A stretch of DNA of 64,000 nucleotides from contig NZ_CP122539.1 in the NCBI RefSeq assembly GCF_029853675.1, positions 2,127,001-2,191,000 on the forward strand. Direction: 5' to 3'. The notes below the pieces were generated by a model that was given only the letters and a program-made list of their open reading frames with translations, ran no database searches and had not been told where the DNA came from. This DNA comes from Tenacibaculum tangerinum. Its GTDB lineage: Bacteria; Bacteroidota; Bacteroidia; Flavobacteriales; Flavobacteriaceae. A program made the position numbers and the translations under genes. Numbering within the stretch: the stretch's first letter is position 1; each line of letters starts with the position of its first letter. Below are positions 13,559 through 16,560 of the stretch, one piece after another.

Positions 13559-13756
13559 TTAACCTACCATACTACCACATACACCTAGCCCGATGACTAG
13601 ATACACAACAGCTAGTATGTACATTATTTCTGAGGCTTTTTTGTTTTTATTTTTGATAGCTGCACCAATTATAGCCAATATTACTGGTGGACCAAACATA
13701 ATTAAAAGAACAGCGATAAATATCCCTGTAAGATTACCTAATTCTAAAAATATCAT
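13559..13756 (-). CDS. Small two-TM membrane protein, 65 aa
   Basis: Two hydrophobic helices (about residues 9-33 and 44-62) separated by a basic loop (KNKNKK). It lies 11 bases downstream of the radical SAM gene on the same strand, so it probably belongs to the same operon. No family is recognised. An opposite-strand frame covering the same bases is judged a shadow. Confidence 0.6.
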   Translation of the reverse strand: MIFLELGNLTGIFIAVLLIMFGPPVILAIIGAAIKNKNKKASEIMYILAVVYLVIGLGVCGSMVG

Positions 13757-13767
13757 CTCTTTAACTC

Positions 13768-15159
13768 TTATATTTCTTGCCTTAACTTTTCTAAATATTC
13801 CTTTTTATCATCTCTATAAAAGAGATTCATGGTTTCAAATGGAATAATTTTATTGTCTTTATTTACAATGTGTACACATGATTTTTTGATGGCTCTTACA
13901 TCAAAATTGTAAGCATCTATAAACTGCATAATAATTACTCTAAACAAATTATCATACCCTAATTCTGGGGCATCAATATTTGGCAAACAGCACATTATTG
14001 ATTTTAAATTTTCTTCTGCTACCTCAACAGAATTCCCTGTACTAAACAACGCTATCATTTTTCCATGTAGTGCTTCATCTTGCTCATAAATAATGGTGTT
14101 TTTGCTAGTGTCTAGCAAATCGTTAGGGTTGATATACCTAGTTAACGGAAACACTTCTCCATTCAACTTAAGAGCATATCCCATAACCAAAGCATCAGGG
14201 TTACAAGGTACTGGAATTAAATCGTTTGCATTAAAAACGTCAGTTTGCTCCATTATTTTTCTTCTTACTTCAGTAAGCGTCATTCTATCAGTTTCAGGAT
14301 TAAAACTTTCTAATCTTCCTGCTATTTGTGTTGGCTGAAAAGTAACTCCTCTCACACATTTTTGTCGCAAGGCATAATCGATTACTTTACCGATTTCATG
14401 GTCGTTTAATCCTTTTTGAAGCGTAACCACCAAGGTTGTAGACAGATTTACCTTATTCAAGTTATCTAGTGCTTGTTTGCGGATTTCACTTAAATCTGCT
14501 CCTCTCAGCTCTCTCAACACGTTGTCTTCAAAAGAATCGAATTGTAAATAAATCTCAAAATCTGGCGTGTAGCCTTTCAATCTTTCAGTAAAAGCAATGT
14601 CTTTTGCTATTTTAATTCCGTTCGTATTCAACATTAAGTGTCGGATAGGAAGTGATTTTGCATAGTCTAAAATTTCCCAAAACTGTGGATGAATGGTTGG
14701 CTCTCCTCCACTGATTTGTACCACATCAGGTTCTTTTTCATTTTTTACCACGGCATCTAACATCGCTTTTACTTCGTCTAAGGTTCGATGACGTCCGTAG
14801 GTAGGTGATGAACCGGCATAACAGGTAGGACACGTTAAGTTACATCTATCGGTAACCTCAACAACGGTTAAACATGAATGTTGCTCATGATCTGGACATA
14901 ATCCACAATCGTACGGACACCCATAATCTGTTTTTGTATTGAACGTATAAGGCATCTCGCTAGGTTTGTTGTAGTTTCTGATACTTTTATAAAATTCAAT
15001 ATCGTCTGCTATTAGCACTCTTGAATTTCCATGTTCTCTACAACGTTTGAGCATGTAGACCTTATCATCTTCAAAAACAATTTTAGCATCTACTCTTTTC
15101 AAACACTCAGGGCATAAACTCAATGTAAAGTCATAGTAGTTATATTTTCTTTCTGGCAT
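13768..15159 (-). CDS. Radical SAM protein, Tes (tetraether synthase)-like
   Basis: A 463-aa iron-sulfur enzyme. A Cys-rich N-terminal region holds a CPEC...CREHG ribbon (residues ~16-60) and GCPYDCGLCPDHEQHSC (~96-112). The radical SAM cluster motif RCNLTCPTC (CX3CX2C, ~122-130) and the SAM-binding GGE motif (SGGEPT) follow. This order and spacing match the archaeal MJ0619/Tes family, which joins lipid alkyl chains by C-C coupling. That function is known for archaeal members only; here it is inferred. Its 5' end overlaps the Lgt-like gene by 20 bases, so the two are tightly coupled. Confidence 0.85.
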   Translation of the reverse strand: MPERKYNYYDFTLSLCPECLKRVDAKIVFEDDKVYMLKRCREHGNSRVLIADDIEFYKSIRNYNKPSEMPYTFNTKTDYGCPYDCGLCPDHEQHSCLTVVEVTDRCNLTCPTCYAGSSPTYGRHRTLDEVKAMLDAVVKNEKEPDVVQISGGEPTIHPQFWEILDYAKSLPIRHLMLNTNGIKIAKDIAFTERLKGYTPDFEIYLQFDSFEDNVLRELRGADLSEIRKQALDNLNKVNLSTTLVVTLQKGLNDHEIGKVIDYALRQKCVRGVTFQPTQIAGRLESFNPETDRMTLTEVRRKIMEQTDVFNANDLIPVPCNPDALVMGYALKLNGEVFPLTRYINPNDLLDTSKNTIIYEQDEALHGKMIALFSTGNSVEVAEENLKSIMCCLPNIDAPELGYDNLFRVIIMQFIDAYNFDVRAIKKSCVHIVNKDNKIIPFETMNLFYRDDKKEYLEKLRQEI

Positions 15160-15913
15160 TTTTTATTTTTTGAGTTATAAATTTCGTGTAATATACATAA
15201 CAAACTATACATAGTATTTGAATAGTACTTAACCCTAATACAAAAAAGGTATTGGGTTTTAAAAATTCTATACAAAAGCGAAAACCAAAGTAGGCTAACA
15301 TAAAAAGCTTAAATAGTTCTCCTGATTGTAAAACATATTCTTTCTGTAGGTGTTTTAGACTGATGAATAACATTACTAAAAACACCAATTCATACAAAGC
15401 TATTGGGTGTCTTAAAACATCATCACCTAAATCCATTCCTAAAAAAGAGGTAGTTTCTACTCCGTAGGTAAACTCATTGATTCCTGAAAGAAAACACCCT
15501 ATCCTACCTATAAAAATTCCCAGAATGATCGGAAACACGAACAAATCGCCAGACGATTTTGTTTCTCCAATCATCTTTTTTGCTATTTCTACTCCTAACA
15601 TACCTCCAAACAAACCTCCCATAATGGTCTTGGTATTCAATAGTTGAATTATGTTTTCTGCGGAAAGAGTTGTCGAAGGATTTTCTAAAACTCCTATTAA
15701 TCGAGAACCAATTAAAGCTCCGATTGCAGCCCCTAAAATAATTGACAACCTATGATTTGAAGAAATAGCATCTTTATTTTTCTTACGTAAGAAAACATAA
15801 TAACGAAAGGCTAAAAAGAATGCTAAATATTCTAAAACAAGATGAATATTAACCGTATAACCAAATAAAACAGGCTCAAAAGGTAGTTCCAATAAAAAAG
15901 TTTGTGAGTTCAA
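15140..15913 (-). CDS. Divergent prolipoprotein diacylglyceryl transferase (Lgt)-fold membrane protein
   Basis: A 257-aa protein with about seven transmembrane helices. Lgt hallmarks are partly kept: a GGLFGGMLGVEIA segment, GRIGCFLSG, RHPIALYE, and an FRFCIEFLKPN segment with its Arg. However, the essential His of the family HGG motif is replaced (FGG) and the Asn of the GRxGN signature is Cys. It is therefore probably not the housekeeping lipoprotein transferase but a paralog with altered chemistry or substrate. It is first in the operon with the Tes-like radical SAM gene, which supports a lipid-related role. Confidence 0.8.
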   Translation of the reverse strand: MNSQTFLLELPFEPVLFGYTVNIHLVLEYLAFFLAFRYYVFLRKKNKDAISSNHRLSIILGAAIGALIGSRLIGVLENPSTTLSAENIIQLLNTKTIMGGLFGGMLGVEIAKKMIGETKSSGDLFVFPIILGIFIGRIGCFLSGINEFTYGVETTSFLGMDLGDDVLRHPIALYELVFLVMLFISLKHLQKEYVLQSGELFKLFMLAYFGFRFCIEFLKPNTFFVLGLSTIQILCIVCYVYYTKFITQKIKNARKKI

Positions 15914-16188: not shown

Positions 16189-16560
16189 ATGAAAACTAAC
16201 TTATTGTTTGTACTAAGTATTAGTATCTTTGTTTCTTTAGCCAGCTGTTCTTCTGACGACGACGCTACTCCAACAGACCCTGTTGACCCTGACCCTACTC
16301 CTGTTACCAAAACGACTTACGACAAAGACGTTAAAACGGCAATCAACAACAGTTGTGCTACTAGTAATTGCCACGATGCTACTGCTCCCACTGGTGGACT
16401 TCCATTAACCAATTACACACAGGTTAAAAATGCGGCTCAAAATGGTAATTTAATAACTCGTATAAATAGCAATACCAACCCCATGCCTCCAACAGGTAAG
16501 GATCAATCAATCATTAACCTTATTAACAACTGGAAAAATGACGGGTATCTCGAAAATTAA
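16189..16560 (+). CDS. Haem-binding (cytochrome c-like) lipoprotein
   Basis: A 123-aa lipoprotein with a lipobox at LASC (Cys near residue 20), an acidic and Pro-rich linker (SSDDDATPTDPVDPDPTP), then a small domain with a CX4CH haem-attachment motif (CATSNCH) and a candidate axial Met in NPMPP. It is probably an outer-membrane-anchored electron carrier or redox sensor. It begins an operon with a YceI protein, an OB-fold protein and a DUF5777 barrel. Confidence 0.8.
   Translation: MKTNLLFVLSISIFVSLASCSSDDDATPTDPVDPDPTPVTKTTYDKDVKTAINNSCATSNCHDATAPTGGLPLTNYTQVKNAAQNGNLITRINSNTNPMPPTGKDQSIINLINNWKNDGYLEN

Follow-up and report, generated by a model that had tools for sequence, protein, structure and literature searches.

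A Tes-related radical SAM enzyme and an Lgt paralog are inherited together beside a cysteine-tailed microprotein, their probable target

Results

Three adjoining genes in Tenacibaculum tangerinum

We analysed a 64,000-nucleotide window of the Tenacibaculum tangerinum genome (contig NZ_CP122539.1, positions 2,127,001 to 2,191,000; "the window" below means this whole stretch), in which three open reading frames (ORFs) on the minus strand encode, in order, a protein of the Lgt fold, a radical SAM (S-adenosylmethionine) enzyme related to the tetraether synthase Tes, and a microprotein with two predicted transmembrane helices. The features are as follows.

15140..15913, minus strand: Lgt-fold paralog, 257 aa from a TTG at 15913
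13768..15159, minus strand: Tes-related radical SAM enzyme, 463 aa
13559..13756, minus strand: two-helix membrane microprotein, proposed substrate, 65 aa
13577..13579, minus strand: codon (TGT) of Cys60, proposed lipid acceptor, five residues from the C-terminus, in a conserved column and recovered by the tail scan described below

The Lgt-like and radical SAM ORFs overlap, as the original prediction had pointed out when it singled out these three ORFs; the overlap is 20 nt, and 11 nt separate the radical SAM ORF from the microprotein. The Lgt paralog probably starts at a TTG at 15892 (250 aa) rather than at 15913, since most of the listed homologs are 245–250 aa long. The closest named protein matches of the window genes come from Tenacibaculum. 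The original prediction would have failed had the genome contained no separate lgt, and a second, canonical copy does lie at C1:26580-27383 of this single-contig, 3.61-Mb genome.

We compared the locus with the best 80 of 311 relatives, all 80 of which contain all three ORF types; environmental Flavobacterium (L052, L062) is among the carriers. The Lgt-like ORF ends at most 411 nt upstream of the radical SAM ORF in 76 of them, the exceptions being L024, L042 and L076, where the two are 1.3–1.7 kb apart, and L078, where the Lgt lies in two distant pieces. Across the 81 sequences of the conservation alignment, 328 positions of the radical SAM enzyme and 69 of the Lgt paralog are at least 98% conserved; with this conservation and the presence of all three ORF types throughout, the locus is not a product of chance. 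A split Lgt-like ORF, with distant pieces in L078 and overlapping frames in L081, may reflect decay or assembly error.

The two enzymes are inherited as a unit

Among 395 genomes of the phylum, the radical SAM enzyme (E ≤1e-40) was found in 34 and the Lgt paralog (E ≤1e-20) in 32; 31 genomes contain both, three the radical SAM enzyme only, one the Lgt only and 360 neither. Co-occurrence was assessed by Fisher's test, which takes no account of relatedness. The three genomes with only the radical SAM enzyme are G066, G302 and G096, and in G096 a divergent Lgt adjoins it. Both genes are present in G034 and G272, on separate contigs. Evolutionary distances of the radical SAM enzyme and its partner Lgt are strongly correlated (Mantel, 17 genomes, r = 0.90); the controls gave 0.13 for the radical SAM enzyme against canonical Lgt and 0.25 for the two Lgts against each other. 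The gene coupling that the original prediction proposed is thus borne out by neighbourhood, co-occurrence and co-evolution, and we conclude that the radical SAM enzyme and the Lgt paralog form a real, old unit.

The radical SAM enzyme is a relative of Tes

The radical SAM enzyme contains a rubredoxin-like motif CX2CX20CX2H (C16, C19, C40, H43), an N-terminal cluster motif GCPYDCGLCPDH (C81, C85, C88, H91) and the radical SAM motif CX3CX2C (C106, C110, C113), with further cysteines, C319 and C428, in its C-terminal part. The original prediction had recognised a Tes-like layout in these motifs, and the first two have the spacings given for solved Tes/GDGT-MAS (C9X2C12X20C33X2H36; C73, C77 and C80 plus a His) in the available sections of the structure paper (PMC9433317). 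Pfam detects a radical SAM domain and an HMPTM zinc ribbon. By far the strongest solved relative in sequence is PDB 7tol (E 3.5e-73, or 1.1e-105 with a 57-sequence profile), and an AlphaFold2 model (mean pLDDT 80.3, weak at residues 349–399 and at the end) superposes on 7tol/7tom with a TM-score of 0.80–0.81; two peptide maturases, SkfB and SuiB, rank next among its structural matches.

Family membership is a different matter. The top NCBIfam match is TrsS (NF045646, 335.5 bits), below its cut-off of 490, which no match exceeds in the 395 genomes. The score against Tes (NF045702) is 295.8 bits, below the cut-off of 450. In a 35-row tree the window enzyme falls in a clade of 18 rows (support 100/100) apart from the two Tes rows, and forcing window clade and Tes into one clade is disfavoured (p-AU, from the approximately unbiased test, 0.035, with long branches flagged). 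Tes is represented in this tree by L125 and L167, of which L125 was scored against NCBIfam; the sole archaeal row is L164, which is not called Tes. Of two residues described as completely conserved in archaeal Tes homologs in the sections available of PMC9433317, Met439 corresponds to M411 of the window enzyme in a profile alignment and Tyr459 to Ile431 (for Tes numbering, we derived a chain offset of 20 from the position of the C9 motif). Both M411 and Ile431 are at least 98% conserved in the 81 close relatives. On sequence grounds, we therefore take the enzyme to be a relative of Tes and not a Tes, contrary to the family membership that the original prediction had implied: the family score and the separate clade speak against Tes. 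We likewise reject TrsS on a score below the cut-off; the ORF is also open without read-through.

The only radical SAM enzyme in our set to exceed the Tes cut-off is that of L125 (G066, same phylum; 493.8 bits). We found no Lgt in the 15 kb surrounding it, nor a gene for a cysteine-tailed protein; G066 has a single Lgt match, and L125 is a candidate true bacterial tetraether synthase.

The Lgt paralog belongs to a dedicated clade

The paralog has the Lgt fold and passes the gathering cut-off of PF01790, the LGT fold family, with 88 bits (198.6 for the canonical Lgt of the same genome); its TIGR00544 score of 45.9 bits is below the cut-off of 118.9. Its R137, G151, E175, Y208, R212 and E216 correspond to E. 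coli R143, G154, E202, Y235, R239 and E243. In E. coli Lgt, R143 and R239 hold the phospholipid, and both are kept. Six residues are listed as essential in E. coli Lgt (Y26, H103, R143, N146, G154 and R239) in the parts available of PMC13251419; the paralog keeps the equivalents of R143, G154 and R239. Two motifs are altered as the original prediction had seen, with LFGG in place of HGG and GRIGC in place of GRxGN. The cysteine of the latter, C140, is conserved in 81/81 sequences, and a C235xxC238 pair in 80/81.

The original prediction had used the replaced His and Asn to argue for an altered Lgt, and this argument is weakened by a comparison with 26 other Lgts from 23 genomes, 20 of which carry the pair. 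Thirteen of the 26 have Cys at the Asn146 position, as does the sole Lgt match of G302, and HG[GA] is not matched in 14 by a rough regular expression (the Y26 and H103 columns of this alignment are misaligned for canonical rows and were left unused). An mBio article of 2026 also describes, in the parts available, other Lgts with H103 changed to Y, W or F and N146 to C (PMC13251419). These counts rule out the argument that a protein with both residues replaced cannot catalyse the Lgt reaction; that either His-to-Phe or Asn-to-Cys marks lost function is not supported.

These residues bear on one alternative, in which the paralog is a lipid-binding or lipid-flipping partner that feeds the radical SAM enzyme, with the Cys serving for a disulfide or a metal. 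The change of three residues essential in E. coli and the conservation of C140 and C235xxC238 would suit such a partner. Against it, the equivalents of R143, G154, E202, Y235 and R239 are invariant in all 26 partnered Lgts, and the Cys of G302 at the Asn146 position occurs in the only Lgt match of that genome. We regard this alternative as very doubtful.

A tree of 51 Lgts groups all 25 sequences of the radical SAM-partnered type, mycobacterial plasmid ones included, in one clade against the 26 others (support 100/99). It divides into the same three subgroups as the radical SAM tree: the window type, the L122 type and an Actinomycetota type with L124. Its 25 rows include two, L180 and L181, on a different contig from the radical SAM gene, and that of G017, in which no radical SAM enzyme was found. 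The Lgt of G017 (L179) is thus of the partnered clade.

A microprotein with a conserved C-terminal cysteine

The window microprotein has a lysine-rich loop and a second helix predicted to run from inside to outside, and it ends GLGVCGSMVG. It occurs once in 41 of the 80 close loci, twice in 36 and three times in three. We aligned 123 family members (122 related ORFs plus that of the window); Cys is present in 121, as is the Gly that follows it, and the two that lack it, in L036 and L071, are additional copies with an intact neighbour. Among 22 aligned proteins of the window family, invariance is confined to I, Y, G and C, with a single Tyr. A profile of the family matched 14 of the 395 genomes, of which one (G144, E 9.8e-4), a stretch inside a 482-aa frame, was judged spurious and left out. 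The other 13 all contain both partners, with the microprotein gene adjoining the radical SAM gene; in G212 the copy lies on a short contig with the end of that gene.

At more distant loci, the small proteins look different yet end alike (...VGYSICSSMRFPH, ...IGLGACAVILANG, ...ISGYICGGL, ...LQGLCALGIFVN, ...IFGSCLSILFNPK and ...TVGVCTGLNPAMYTGA). In both Bacteroidota and Actinomycetota, small membrane proteins accompany the pair, one to three per locus, in which a Cys 1–14 residues from the C-terminus closes the final helix. We scanned for such tails, defined as a hydrophobic stretch followed by Cys within the last 16 residues, with a net charge of at least +1 before it. Near the pair, 166 of 873 ORFs on the strand of the radical SAM gene matched, in 107 of 109 loci; removal by eye of 11 overlapping or unrelated ORFs left 155 tails in 105 loci. 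Further away, where both strands were counted, matches came to 23 of 2418 ORFs and to 17 of 109 loci; a helix is predicted in 560 of the 2418. The loci without a tail are L115, where the pair is split over contigs, the Tes rows L125 and L167, and L126, at a contig end, whose small genes were found on another contig. Similarity between the groups of tail proteins is weak, so that they may be one family or several; the Cys is retained either way.

The 155 proteins carry a mean net charge of +4.2 before the last helix, where the scan required at least +1, and of +0.08 after the Cys, which was unconstrained. The same charge order is seen in the 123-protein alignment, which was not selected by charge. 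The Cys should therefore face outward, where Lgt works. Position -2 to the Cys is Gly in 139 of 162 tails and position -1 is Ile or Val in 124 of 162 (counts made before the last seven removals). The usual lipobox follows the pattern [LVI][ASTVI][GAS]C, which none of the 155 tails fits; 11 have G, A or S at -1 and 144 another residue. The tail resembles, judging by its layout, a lipoprotein signal moved to the C-terminus. The original prediction had seen the small protein as completing the operon; the ORF is indeed present and conserved, and is probably the target or substrate rather than an operon extra.

Two alternatives assign the microprotein another role. Loci for ribosomally synthesised and post-translationally modified peptides (RiPPs) typically encode small, duplicated and variable proteins beside a radical SAM enzyme, and the microprotein could be a RiPP-like precursor, cross-linked or otherwise changed by the radical SAM enzyme and anchored by the Lgt paralog. 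SkfB and SuiB follow Tes among the structural matches, and the invariant Tyr could be the modified site. The near-full-length likeness to a lipid enzyme, with the same rubredoxin-like and N-cluster motifs, and the want of any invariant column beyond I, Y, G and C in the 22 proteins make this clearly unlikely. In the second alternative, close to the idea of the original prediction, the product of the pair is a free membrane lipid, such as a phospholipid whose chains are coupled or macrocyclic; the microprotein would then be only a scaffold or regulator with a structural Cys. The relation of the radical SAM enzyme to Tes and the binding of phospholipid by Lgt are compatible with it, as is G034, in which our pattern found no Cys-tail ORF beside either gene (one spurious match dropped). 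Yet the small proteins vary strongly between groups and are often in tandem, in 39 of 80 close loci counting the doubles and triples above, while retaining the Cys, and in a scaffold one would expect conservation to reach beyond the tail. We consider a free lipid unlikely.

The layout recurs in distant bacteria

A search of plasmid records with a distant radical SAM sequence gave ten records, six of which we examined. Those of Mycobacterium avium, M. branderi and Nonomuraea contain an Lgt-family gene, small membrane proteins and the radical SAM enzyme together, and all three parts are also present in Persicobacter. Two Cys-tail proteins are encoded at the M. avium locus and two at that of M. 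branderi; the Nonomuraea tail stands at the end of a 368-aa frame. The Actinomycetota-type enzymes (L161-L163, L124) keep the radical SAM motif and several C-terminal cysteines.

Between the radical SAM and Lgt genes lies an ICMT-family gene in L122 (L122:7886-8494, 59 bits) and L123 (L123:4784-5855, 50 bits; cut-off 24), accompanied in L123 by a DUF4395 protein. Eukaryotic ICMT enzymes methylate a C-terminal lipidated Cys, and by analogy the gene fits a C-terminal modification; a phospholipid methyltransferase family matches this stretch as well.

Two further plasmid loci, L159 (Mycolicibacterium vanbaalenii) and L164 (the haloarchaeon Halorarius), place the radical SAM gene beside a DVU_1556-like methyltransferase (136 and 130 bits, respectively; cut-off 155). 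No Lgt is annotated at either locus, L159 also has CcdA and a disulfide oxidoreductase, and both radical SAM enzymes score below the TrsS cut-off and lie outside the window clade. This looks like a separate Tes-related system.

In the window itself, a small lipoprotein-like ORF at 16189-16560 on the plus strand contains a CATSNCH stretch, a possible unusual haem site, with a weak PSCyt1 match (18.7 bits; cut-off 22).

Discussion

We propose a three-part protein-lipidation system, in which the Lgt paralog lipidates the microprotein Cys and the radical SAM enzyme alters alkyl chains, either those of the attached lipid or those of its donor; we give this complete scheme an even chance of being right. 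The data show the gene unit, its joint inheritance, an acceptor-like Cys and the folds, from which we infer all three reactions and their order. The microprotein would sit in the inner membrane such that its final helix leads from the cytoplasmic to the periplasmic side, which, judging by the charges, would place the C-terminal Cys at the outer interface. The dedicated Lgt paralog would then transfer a diacylglyceryl-type group to this Cys. We propose this because a basic stretch, a helix and an outer Cys make up the layout of a lipoprotein signal and a dedicated, co-evolving Lgt is at hand; taken alone, this step is one towards which we lean slightly. Under the lipobox rule, cleavage by LspA would not be expected, because the residue before the Cys is other than G, A or S in 144 of 155 tails; the helix would be retained and the protein would end in a lipidated tail. 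Finally, the radical SAM enzyme may modify hydrocarbon chains of the Cys lipid or of the phospholipid donor by abstracting hydrogen from an unreactive carbon, probably to join chain ends, as its relation to Tes suggests. Such an alkyl-chain reaction we put forward tentatively, at slightly under even chances. As described in the available part of PMC9433317, Tes binds its lipid in a hydrophobic pocket and reacts at the chain end. Such ends are located at mid-membrane, so a cytoplasmic radical SAM enzyme could act on the lipid or its donor. The special lipid and the C-terminal position of the acceptor would account for the system having an Lgt of its own in place of the normal one. The original prediction is thus partly supported, in its gene coupling, its separate lgt and its lipid-related folds, but not in membership of Tes.

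Several observations weigh against this scheme. The predicted periplasmic Cys and the cytoplasmic radical SAM enzyme are on opposite faces of the membrane, so that the substrate of the enzyme must be the chains or a lipid that passes from one face to the other. The radical SAM enzyme lacks the Tyr459 of Tes, and the Lgt paralog has V26, F102 and C140 for the E. coli-essential Y26, H103 and N146. The Actinomycetota-type enzymes are without the GCPxDCGLCP cluster motif, so that the chemistry may differ between groups. G017 is the only genome with the Lgt alone, no radical SAM enzyme being found there at E 1e-40, and G034, as noted, offers no acceptor by our pattern. The tail counts also overstate independence: one close family supplies 80 of the 109 loci scanned, the scan itself required the helix, the late Cys and the charge of at least +1, and we estimate the independent cases at nearer a dozen groups.

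Two lipid-building enzyme families thus form one inherited unit with a probable protein target, which gives bacterial Tes relatives a candidate substrate that can be tested directly and cautions against taking Tes-like matches in bacteria as evidence of membrane-spanning lipids. A further suggestion is that membrane proteins may be modified at their C-terminus by Lgt paralogs, as has been proposed of this step for MYXO-CTERM proteins, where it is assigned to no particular enzyme. We speculate, at rather long odds, that bacteria have a general C-terminal lipidation of membrane microproteins, in which an uncleaved lipobox-like tail receives, from an Lgt paralog, a lipid whose chains are coupled by a Tes-type radical SAM enzyme, giving a covalently attached macrocyclic or membrane-spanning anchor. 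With the root of the radical SAM tree placed on the Actinomycetota-type branch, enzymes of the Tes type would fall among Lgt-partnered ones, and Tes might derive from such a protein-anchor system.

Bacterial Tes homologs of no known product have been noted before, in passages that name no gene neighbourhood (PMC8941075, PMC9433317, as far as available). A literature search on titles and the beginnings of abstracts, covering few subscription journals, found none joining Tes with Lgt or an Lgt operon with a radical SAM gene, and TrsS appears in the literature searched only as a table entry in one paper.

Compared with known systems, the window enzyme shares with Tes/GDGT-MAS (MJ0619, PDB 7tol/7tom, NF045702) a near-full-length fold (TM-score 0.80), the rubredoxin-like, N-cluster and radical SAM motifs, and Met439 as M411; it differs in its score, its clade, Ile431 for Tyr459, and its pairing with an Lgt paralog and with Cys-tail genes. 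Neither kind of partner was found at L125, the only locus here above the Tes cut-off. With the radical SAM (seleno)protein TrsS it shares the top-scoring curated family, but falls short of the cut-off and has no read-through. Canonical Lgt (E. coli, PDB 5azb) and the paralog have in common the fold and the equivalents of R143, R239, G154, E202, Y235 and E243, whereas the paralog is a second copy in its genome, in a separate clade, with Y26, H103 and N146 replaced. N-terminal lipobox lipoproteins likewise present a basic part, a hydrophobic helix and a Cys at the outer face, but the signal described here is C-terminal and none of its 155 tails fits their pattern. The MYXO-CTERM/myxosortase system also has a C-terminal signal, whose invariant Cys near the C-terminus is predicted to receive a lipid, possibly from an Lgt-like enzyme (PMC11980579, in the part available). 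In that signal the order is Cys, helix and basic cytoplasmic tail, and a CPBP protease takes part; the tails described here run from a basic part through the helix to the Cys, a reversed topology served by a dedicated Lgt and a radical SAM enzyme, the latter being absent from the available part of that account. The system described here would be a new variant of protein lipidation, for which the Cys lipidation suggested for MYXO-CTERM proteins is the nearest idea in print.

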